64,000 bases of DNA from an uncultured Verrucomicrobia subdivision 3 bacterium (GTDB lineage: Bacteria; Verrucomicrobiota; Verrucomicrobiia; Limisphaerales; UBA11358). Each line of letters opens with the position of its first letter. The stretch's first letter is position 1. The position numbers and the translations under genes were made by a program. Where the stretch lies: positions 1 through 64,000 of the forward strand of contig CAIQWB010000029.1 of the NCBI GenBank assembly GCA_903875465.1, given 5' to 3'. The notes under the pieces were generated by a model. It worked only from the letters and a program-made list of their open reading frames with translations, was not told where the DNA came from and did not search any database. Of this stretch, positions 37,617-40,538 are shown piece after piece.

Positions 37617-39863
37617 ATGACAAAAGCAGTATTATTGCCGCTCGGCTTCATTTTTCTCCTGGCGGCCGCTACTCCGACCACGGCCCAGCCAAGTTCAACC
37701 GACGTGGCCGTAAATGAGGCGGTCCTGCGCCAGTCCTATACTATCGTTTTGCGCCAGCGGCTTGTTGCCGCCAAAGCCGCTGCCAGTCGGGGCGAAATTG
37801 TCGAGGCTGCGAAGCTTTATCAGGAGGCCACCAGTCTAGCCCAGCAAATTGGTTCCGGTATTGACTTGGAGACGCATCAGGCCGTTGCCGGTTTGACGGC
37901 CACCCGGTTAACCCTTGCTCGTCAAGCGCAAGTTCACCATGATCTGGCGGAAGCTGACAAACAGATCACGCAGGTGATCAAGGTCGACCCCAAGAACCAA
38001 GAGGCGATTGCCTTGAAACGGCAGAACGACCAATTGATTGCTTTGAGTCGCGGACATGTGCCGGACCCTTCGACCATTGAGCAAATCCCCATCGTTAGAA
38101 ATCAAAAAATTGACGCTGGTACATTGGTCCAGGATGGCAAGCTCCTCTATGAAATGGGCAAATTTGAAGAGGCGGAAGTAAAACTAAAAGCCGCCATTAA
38201 ACTTGATCCCGACAATGCCGGTGCTTTTTATTACCTGAATTTGATTCAGCAGGCACAATTCAGTCGCTCCACCTTGAATCATACGGCTGACACGCAAATT
38301 CGTATGCAACAGGTTGAAAAGCAATGGGTTTTACCCAAAACTCAAAATTTAAGTGCTAATAATCCATTTGCCACGACCAACCTGGTTTACACCGGACCGG
38401 GCCGTCAAGAAATTGTCAGCAAGCTTGAGCGCATCCATCTGGACACGGTTTCCTTTGATGGTCTGCCTTTGAGCGAAGTGCTTCGCAGCCTTTCTGAGCA
38501 AGCCAAGATCCGGGACCCAGAAAAAGCCGGAATTAATTTCTTAATCAATCCCAATGCGGACCTTTCCGGTACCATTGCCACTGCACCGGTTGGCGGCGGG
38601 TTTCCCGGTGAAGGCCGTGCGGCGGCACTTGATCCCGCTACCGGATTGCCTCAAGCCCCGGCTGCGGCACCAGCTGAACAAGTCGATGTTGGTTCAATTA
38701 TTGTTAAATTAAATCTCAGCCACGTTAAGCTATCGGACGTCTTGGATGCCATCGTTTTGGTGGCTGATCACCCTATTAAATACTCCATTCAAGATTTTGC
38801 GGTGGTTTTCTCCTCCAAATCCGCTGACTCGGCCCCTTTGTTCATGCGCACCTTCAAAGTGGATGCTAATACATTCTTTCAAGGTTTGGAAAGCGTGAAC
38901 TCATCCTCCTTCGGGGCTAACAATTCTAGTGGTGGCGGCGGTGGTGGTGGCGGCGGCGGTGGTGGCGGTGGTGGCGGTGGCGGTAGCGGTCAGAATACTG
39001 GGGCTGTGGTGCCGGTTGTTGACATGTCGCCAGGTGCCAGCCAGCTTCGCCAAACTCAGGGTGGGGGCGGTGGTAATACCGGTAACACTGGTGGCAGTTT
39101 TGGCGGTGCTGCCGGCGGAGCGGGTGGTGGTACAGGCGGTGCCGGTGGTGCCGTGGGCGGTTGGAACGTTAGCGGACAAAACGGCGGCGTAAATTTTCTA
39201 ACTGTAAAACGGACAACTGACGAGATGGGCATTGTCGTTAGGAATTTCTTCAATGTCATGGGGGTTAATTTGAATGCCCCCAAGGCCGTCTTCTTTAACG
39301 ACCGTCTTGGCTTGTTGTTTGTCAAGGCAACCGAATCAGATTTGGATACCATTGAGCGTGCCATTGAAGTATTGAATCAAATTTCGCCCCAGGTTCACAT
39401 CAAGGCTCGTTTCGTAGAAGTGGAGCAAGATGACTCAAAGGCATTAGGTTTCGATTGGTACTTGGGCCAATTTGGTCATACTGTGGTTGCTTCTGGAGGA
39501 TCCTCTCCTTCATTAAGCGCACCGGTTAACCAATCCGCCCCGGTAGGCGCTTTTCCTGGCACCTCTGCCGCCACTACCAAGGCATCTTCAACGACCGATC
39601 AGTTGATTACTGGAGGGTTGCAAAATTCTGGTCCCACCGTTGCGACCATTACGGGTATTTTGACTAATCCTAATTTTCAAGTTGCCATTCACGCTTTGGA
39701 ACAGCGTTCTGGGTTTGAAAATCTTGCAGAGCCGGAAGTTACCACCACCAGTGGTCGTCAAACTCAAATGCGGGCAACGTCGTTGTTGACGGTCATTGTT
39801 GGCGTCACCTTCCAGGGCGGGGGTTTGGGTGGTGGCACTGGCACAGGGGCTGGCGGTCTTTAA
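37617..39863 (+). CDS. Secretin, N-terminal half (TPR and N domains, start of the barrel)
   Basis: A 748-residue exported protein (signal MTKAVLLPLGFIFLLAAATPTTA-QP). TPR-like helices occupy about 55-220 (AKLYQEATSLAQQ, LLYEMGKFEEAEVKLKAAIKLDPDNA). From about 265 come STN/N0-like and N1-type domains (LERIHLDTVSFDGLPLSEVLRSL, SIIVKLNLSHVKLSDVLDAIVLV, FFNVMGVNLNAPKAVFFNDRLGLLFVKATESDLDTIERAIEVLN), then the beginning of the secretin domain (VHIKARFVEVEQDDSKALGFDW; FQVAIHALEQRSGFENLAEPEVTTTSGRQ). It stops after VIVGVTFQ and a Gly-rich end, before the secretin signature. That part is in the next gene. Counterpart of Amuc_1098/PilQ. A run of 18 Gly lies at 439-456. Confidence 0.85.
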   Translation: MTKAVLLPLGFIFLLAAATPTTAQPSSTDVAVNEAVLRQSYTIVLRQRLVAAKAAASRGEIVEAAKLYQEATSLAQQIGSGIDLETHQAVAGLTATRLTLARQAQVHHDLAEADKQITQVIKVDPKNQEAIALKRQNDQLIALSRGHVPDPSTIEQIPIVRNQKIDAGTLVQDGKLLYEMGKFEEAEVKLKAAIKLDPDNAGAFYYLNLIQQAQFSRSTLNHTADTQIRMQQVEKQWVLPKTQNLSANNPFATTNLVYTGPGRQEIVSKLERIHLDTVSFDGLPLSEVLRSLSEQAKIRDPEKAGINFLINPNADLSGTIATAPVGGGFPGEGRAAALDPATGLPQAPAAAPAEQVDVGSIIVKLNLSHVKLSDVLDAIVLVADHPIKYSIQDFAVVFSSKSADSAPLFMRTFKVDANTFFQGLESVNSSSFGANNSSGGGGGGGGGGGGGGGGGGSGQNTGAVVPVVDMSPGASQLRQTQGGGGGNTGNTGGSFGGAAGGAGGGTGGAGGAVGGWNVSGQNGGVNFLTVKRTTDEMGIVVRNFFNVMGVNLNAPKAVFFNDRLGLLFVKATESDLDTIERAIEVLNQISPQVHIKARFVEVEQDDSKALGFDWYLGQFGHTVVASGGSSPSLSAPVNQSAPVGAFPGTSAATTKASSTTDQLITGGLQNSGPTVATITGILTNPNFQVAIHALEQRSGFENLAEPEVTTTSGRQTQMRATSLLTVIVGVTFQGGGLGGGTGTGAGGL
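38931..38984 (+). repeat. GGY trinucleotide tract (18 consecutive Gly codons)
   Basis: Eighteen glycine codons, all GGT or GGC, lie in a row between the second N domain and the N-domain next to the barrel. A second Gly-rich low-complexity part follows at about 39058-39165. Such tracts are prone to slippage in multiples of three and form a long flexible linker in the secretin. Confidence 0.9.
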
Positions 39864-39884
39864 TTTTAATCATTTGGCGAAATT

Positions 39885-40538
39885 ATGAAGAAGCGTTATC
39901 AAAACAAGTTAAGCGGTGGGTTGGTTTCCCTTTGCGCCGTTCTGGTTTCCTCCCCGGCCATGGCCCAGGTGGTACAGCAGGCGGTTCAAACATCCGCGAT
40001 TAATTTCAATACGCAAACGGTTGAGACAGGTCCAGTTCTGGACGTGGTGCCATATGTGCTTTCCGATGGTTACACGATCAATCTGACGCTGATACCCAAT
40101 CTGACTGAATTTAACGGATATGACACTCCCCCCATTATTCCAAGTGTCACCGGCGCGCTCAACGTGGTGCAACTCCCAATTGTCCTCCCTAATTTTACCG
40201 TTCGCGAAGTTGTTACAACCGTAAATGTATGGGATAATCAGACGGTAGTGCTTGGGGGGTTGATTTCTTCCTCGATTCAGACAACCAAGGACAAGGTGCC
40301 GGTATTGGGCGATTTGCCACTGTTTGGCACGCTGTTTCAGAGCCAGAGCAAGACGGCCACCAAGAAAAACCTGATGATTTTCGTAACTACTTCGATTGTT
40401 GATCCAGCCGGTAACCGGGTGCATTCGGACGATGAATTGCCCTTCACCCAAACCGCCATTCCTCCACAGCCGGCCGGTGCCGGTCATATGTCGGAAAATG
40501 TCGAAAAGGTGCATTCATTGCCTAGCGCAAATGAATGA
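39885..40538 (+). CDS. Secretin, C-terminal half, with its own signal peptide
   Basis: A 217-residue product starting at ATG 39885, 21 bp after the stop of the first half. It begins with a complete signal peptide (MKKRYQNKLSGGLVSLCAVLVSSPAMA-Q, cleavage after A27), then continues the secretin domain where the first half stopped: VETGPVLDVVPYVLSDGYTI, LPNFTVREVVTTVNVWDNQT, VVLGGLISSSIQTTKDK, and the signature VPVLGDLPLFGTLF (138-151), KKNLMIFVTTSIVDPAG. In ordinary secretins these blocks are one chain. Here the barrel must be assembled from two separately exported chains, unless the frame break is recent. The signal peptide argues for real function. Confidence 0.85.
   Translation: MKKRYQNKLSGGLVSLCAVLVSSPAMAQVVQQAVQTSAINFNTQTVETGPVLDVVPYVLSDGYTINLTLIPNLTEFNGYDTPPIIPSVTGALNVVQLPIVLPNFTVREVVTTVNVWDNQTVVLGGLISSSIQTTKDKVPVLGDLPLFGTLFQSQSKTATKKNLMIFVTTSIVDPAGNRVHSDDELPFTQTAIPPQPAGAGHMSENVEKVHSLPSANE

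Follow-up and report, generated by a model that had tools for sequence, protein, structure and literature searches.

Secretins are giant multi-subunit outer-membrane rings common to type II, III and IV machines, and the mechanism by which their gates open is still being worked out. In f1 pIV, Gate 1 forms bonds with the Gate 2 of its neighbour and has a disordered tip, a part that varies and lacks order in known secretins (PMC8563730). Secretins with parts on separate polypeptides have been described. RhcC1/RhcC2 of the rhizobial T3SS has been termed a 'split secretin' (PMC3574062, PMC3973906, PMC3459982); in that system RhcC2 holds the entire secretin domain and derives from a Tad secretin, RhcC1 is an N-domain remnant, and the two genes lie apart (PMC3574062, PMC3459982). 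Mitochondrial GspD has a separate GspDN1-3 (PMC8134430). The pilus secretin Amuc_1098 of Akkermansia muciniphila is located in the outer membrane (PMC4960237). The open literature on split or two-chain secretins, consulted mostly as titles and the starts of abstracts, yielded no paper describing a secretin whose pore domain is itself divided.

Here we analyse a 64,000-nucleotide stretch of DNA from an uncultured Verrucomicrobia subdivision 3 bacterium ("the window"). We consider it probable, from sequence comparison, that the window encodes a type IV pilus secretin of the Limisphaerales (PilQ, near the Amuc_1098 family) in two neighbouring genes, with the division at the Gate 1 tip, and that their chains would co-assemble as a nicked-gate ring.

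Two adjacent genes at the secretin locus

An earlier note on this DNA had described a secretin split over two genes, each with its own signal peptide, in which the first chain ends Gly-rich in the barrel region and the second carries the conserved end of the barrel. The open reading frames are as described. Chain A (37617..39863, + strand, 748 aa) holds a signal peptide, a TPR region, the N-domains, the beginning of the secretin barrel and the first half of Gate 1, while chain B (39885..40538, +, 217 aa) holds a signal peptide, the second half of Gate 1, Gate 2 and the remaining barrel. Both starts are signal-peptide-like as judged by eye from the sequence: the predicted signal peptide of chain A is MTKAVLLPLGFIFLLAAATPTTA (37617..37685, +), and that of chain B, MKKRYQNKLSGGLVSLCAVLVSSPAMA (39885..39965, +), has a counterpart in all split relatives. 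Chain A terminates at a TAA (39861-39863) that is followed by a second in-frame TAA (39867-39869), and a spacer of 21 nt leads to the chain B ATG at 39885 (stop and spacer together, 39861..39884, +). The two chains share one frame in the window, with in-frame stops alone between them.

Profile searches divide one secretin domain between the two chains, in keeping with the note. Chain B by itself scores 96.2 bits against the Pfam Secretin model (PF00263; cut-off 27.5 bits), with residues 32-173 covering positions 41-169 of the 169-position profile, and the start of the domain sits on chain A. The secretin-conserved motif VPVLGDLPLFGTLF (40296..40337, +) was located in chain B by sequence and profile match, and the invariant secretin residues are retained there. 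Chain A carries a TPR repeat (38136..38216, +; Pfam TPR_2, residues 174-200) and matches the Amuc_1098, GspD and PilQ models over their N-terminal portion and early barrel, with the GspD and PilQ matches across residues 511-719. For both halves the best NCBIfam model is NF042912, the Amuc_1098 family (195 bits for A, 128 bits for B), and neither half reaches its whole-protein cut-off of 750 bits. By these scores the window secretin is a relative of the Amuc_1098 family and not a formal member of it.

The genes upstream are also pilus-like. A PilM-like gene of the Amuc_1101 family (33961..35808, +) scores 482 bits, below the model cut-off of 650, and passes the TIGR01175 PilM cut-off; it is followed by a weak match to the Amuc_1100 family (35810..36766, +; 51 bits, below cut-off). 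An open reading frame without an NCBIfam match (36777..37562, +) lies between these genes and chain A, at what we take to be the place where Akkermansia would have Amuc_1099. Directly after chain B, at 40564-41454, is a 5'-3' exonuclease that stands alone and is related to the N-terminal region of DNA polymerase I. Further secretins are present in the same genome, including a fused 1387-aa paralog with a different gate loop (L005, L113; G000:C99:21526-24936). Because the only strong Amuc_1101-type PilM of the genome is found at the split-secretin locus, and pilB/pilT/pilC-like genes are present elsewhere in the genome on contig C105, the window locus is, judging from gene content, most likely the pilus secretin of this genome.

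The split in related genomes

We fetched the locus from 97 related genomes and classified each one; a second set taken from named GTDB records overlaps largely in species and adds families. Almost all of the genomes compared are metagenome bins, and the relatives appear to belong to the Limisphaerales (Verrucomicrobia subdivision 3) and come from several metagenome projects independent of one another. The same split, which the earlier note had proposed to look for in relatives, was found in 42 non-redundant loci from the pooled sets, and 59 loci are fused. Close relatives thus carry the same secretin gene in one piece: the genus of the window contains 32 split loci (counting the window) and 14 fused ones, and the split also occurs in several other families of the order. 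A listing of best matches from across the phylum (241 genomes) contained no additional split. A candidate from outside the order, in G161, was rejected, as its short frame is a contig end.

Chain B comes after chain A in every split locus read, and every chain B read has a signal-peptide-like start. The spacer between the two is typically 14-41 nt. One locus (L036, from G012) far exceeds the other split loci, with a spacer of about 208 nt that includes a short direct repeat (TTGTGATTTACCAATACTGGAATCCCT-like). The last residue of chain A is Pro or Gln in 36/40 split loci, although these residues make up 4% and 10% of tail residues, respectively; such an end may slow termination or protect the chain end.

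The arrangement in the window, with both chains in one frame, could in principle yield a single protein by stop-codon readthrough or a programmed frameshift. A constant frame relation is not seen, however: across the 42 split loci the frame of B relative to A is 0, 1 or 2 in 16, 8 and 18 cases. The presence of all three rules out readthrough or one fixed frameshift and, across the relatives, the single frame over the junction that the note had named as grounds for abandoning the split. In the window itself two stops would have to be passed, and the product would retain a signal peptide inside the gate. We therefore regard a single-protein product as highly unlikely.

The shared frame, interrupted solely by stops, would also be expected of an assembly or sequencing error or of a fresh nonsense mutation on the way to a pseudogene. 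Against this, the same layout recurs in many independent assemblies with varied frames, and the B signal peptide is conserved. Mature B had dN/dS values of 0.041, 0.044, 0.126, 0.077, 0.124 and 0.085 in six pairs, which indicates that it is mostly under purifying selection. Decay of the second half, which the note had held would count against it, was looked for and not seen: invariant residues are kept and dN/dS is about 0.04-0.13 in the six pairs, with two recombination-like exceptions (G031/G032 and G032/G046); the comparison of the window's B with that of G012 is saturated in dS. With low B dN/dS and relatives that share the split, we rejected the pseudogene reading, and we regard an error of any of these kinds as the least probable of the explanations considered.

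The exceptional pairs have features of their own. The chain B signal peptides of L049/L048 (from G031/G032) and L053 (from G046) are identical or nearly so, and in G031/G032 the dS of B is far below that of A (0.044 vs 0.193). Together these observations suggest that the B part has recombined.

The split/fused label changes 8 times on a secretin tree that includes the gate columns. A secretin tree built without the Gate 1 loop has 12 label changes, 9 of them forced by well-supported branches, and a PilM tree needs 13, of which 4 are forced. These reconstructions put the number of switches between the two states at about a dozen (8-13 depending on the tree). Taken with its distribution, this indicates that the gene fission is real and recurrent in many environmental Verrucomicrobia; the direction of individual changes may be either fission or re-fusion.

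The position of the break and the length of Gate 2

To place the break we aligned the sequences globally with f1 pIV and E. coli GspD; HMM alignments to PDB chains, which are local, ended at the gate and left the second hinge unplaced. In pIV numbering, Gate 1 has hinges at Gly267 and Gly297 and a tip at 275-289, and Gate 2 spans D321-N335. The break falls between the two hinge positions, at the gate tip. The first half of Gate 1 (39777..39860, +; model strand 202-213) runs from the position of pIV Gly267, which is Thr and not Gly in the window, to the Gly-rich C-terminal tail of chain A. The second half is the head of mature chain B (39966..40031, +), which extends to a retained Gly aligned with the second hinge, pIV Gly297. 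The earlier note had put the break in a normally variable loop. The variability holds, since in known secretins this tip varies and lacks order; an exterior location does not, as the pIV/GspD alignment rejects an external loop and puts the site at the Gate 1 tip in the pore lumen.

Structure models place the break similarly, at moderate confidence (pLDDT 67-68) and as single chains. The model of a fused relative, for which the top fold matches are all secretins (Z 7-10), has a low-confidence loop (214-240) at the break site, between strands 202-213 and 241-261. In a read-through model of the window, which gives modest support only, the same two strands flank the break and the signal peptide is looped out.

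The tail of chain A after GRQ has a median of 34 residues, and the mature head of B is 21 residues in nearly all split relatives; together these approximate the 53 residues of the fused gate. The gate thus keeps its full length but is nicked. By the same sequence evidence, both chains are conserved, have signal-peptide-like starts and jointly make up the parts of one secretin with a full-length gate.

This bears on whether the two chains act together at all. The chains could be uncoupled, with B forming a small barrel of its own, or A serving as a TPR scaffold in the periplasm, and the pilus carried by another secretin such as the 1387-aa paralog; other secretins do exist in the genome. We think this unlikely, given that every split locus read has B after A, that a close Amuc_1101-type PilM is found at this locus only, and that A retains the N-domains and half a barrel, so that the halves add up to one complete secretin with one complete gate. 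We infer instead that A and B very probably co-assemble in one ring, as the note had reasoned that two exported chains would have to.

The split is accompanied by a difference in Gate 2. In the window, alignment to pIV Gate 2 and comparison of lengths identify the Gate 2 loop as DTPPIIPSVTGALNVVQLPIVLP (40122..40190, +), the short form that accompanies the split. Gate 2 is about seven residues shorter in split loci, at 23 vs 30 residues within the genus and 20.5 vs 29 elsewhere. Across nine independent supported pairs, Gate 2 is shorter in the split member in 7.2-7.8 and differs in the opposite direction in 0; a sign test gives median p values of 0.016 and 0.008 at two length cut-offs, both chosen after the lengths were seen. 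A control loop in chain A lacks such a trend in the same test. All pairs within the genus agree (6/6), as do about half of the three supported pairs outside it, with none opposite. G087, split yet with a long Gate 2, is a clear exception.

If the chains do co-assemble, the split could still be functionally neutral, with a gate tip that simply tolerates a nick and a difference in Gate 2 that is a lineage marker moved by recombination. In favour of this, the tip is variable and disordered in secretins and the state flips often. Furthermore, G021 has the flanks of the fused clade with a junction and Gate 2 both of the split type, and dS is unusually low in the B part of G031/G032; within the genus, junction and Gate 2 may travel together by recombination, G021 being the clearest case, so that the six genus pairs may not be fully independent and their agreement is possibly inflated. 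On the other hand, split lineages beyond the genus that have other loop sequences (G066, G094 and the f16 clade) share the short Gate 2, and the control loop is trendless. A neutral split is thus possible but on balance doubtful, and we consider it likely that the geometry of the gate has changed.

A proposed nicked gate and its relation to known secretins

In a nicked gate, free, uncharged Gly/Thr-rich strand ends would replace closed hairpins, with a shorter Gate 2 in compensation and a softer or wider-opening pore. For the ring itself, the probable route is that Sec carries each chain across the inner membrane and that A and B associate in the periplasm by strand pairing, both of the Gate 1 strands in the inner barrel and of the strands in the outer barrel, with about 12 to 15 A+B pairs making up one outer-membrane ring. 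Each Gate 1 hairpin would be open at its tip, between the flexible, uncharged Gly/Thr-rich tail of A and the free N-terminus of B; Gate 2 would be shortened to fit the neighbouring open Gate 1, and the half-gates could swing aside as the pilus passes. A 10-residue deletion of Gate 2 in pIV is leaky and non-functional (PMC8563730), which counts against the shortened-gate reading.

Some lineages may build the free end with the help of an additional domain. In G094, G371 and G387, the Gly-rich tail of chain A leads on into a Peptidase_S74 domain, and a chain B with a signal peptide comes next. The loci with S74 on chain A are L202 (G094:C50), L203 (G371:C502), L204 (G387:C43) and L179, with scores of 54.6 bits for G094 and 40.5 bits for L179, whose sequence is that of G387. 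The extra domain is thus located, in two families, exactly at the free gate end of chain A. G094 and L179 contain the motif SDRN(L/V)K. Self-cleaving S74/ICA domains have a Ser-Lys pair, S911/K916 in endoNF (PMC8326128), and the motif fits this spacing. Should the domain cleave, chain A would end in an ordinary gate tail. The fullest account, in which the nicked gate makes the pore softer or wider-opening and a self-cleaving S74 chaperone domain helps to build the free end in some lineages, we offer as tentative, with somewhat less than an even chance of being right.

Since the cut lies at the tip of the gate that shuts the pore, the fission has altered a functional part of a well-studied channel. 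The split secretin also suggests that a multi-subunit barrel may be buildable from two exported halves. Fission that recurs naturally at the tip of the gate, matched by a change in the adjacent gate loop, provides many split and fused variants among close relatives for testing the role of the gate hairpin.

Among described systems, Amuc_1098/PilQ of A. muciniphila (NF042912) is the closest: it is the best family for both halves, has a TPR region followed by a secretin domain, and may share with the window PilM-like and Amuc_1100-like neighbours, although the window's Amuc_1101 and Amuc_1100 matches are below their cut-offs. Amuc_1098 is one 907-residue chain, whereas the window has two chains with two signal peptides. 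The central gate of f1 pIV, GspD and XcpD (PMC8563730, PMC10550240) likewise has Gate 1 between two hinge positions and Gate 2 adjacent; there the Gate 1 hairpin is continuous and its first hinge is Gly, whereas in the window it is cut and the first hinge position is Thr. RhcC1/RhcC2 resembles the window in having the N-terminal and C-terminal parts on two genes. In the window, however, the barrel itself is divided, with the secretin domain spread over A and B and not carried whole by the second gene, and the two genes lie side by side and share an origin: a single family gives the best match to both halves, and there are fused sisters. Mitochondrial GspD also has secretin parts on separate polypeptides, but the N-domains alone are separate and the C-terminal pore part is one chain. 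Both of these known split secretins are cut outside the pore domain, and it is the cut inside the pore domain that sets the window apart from them.
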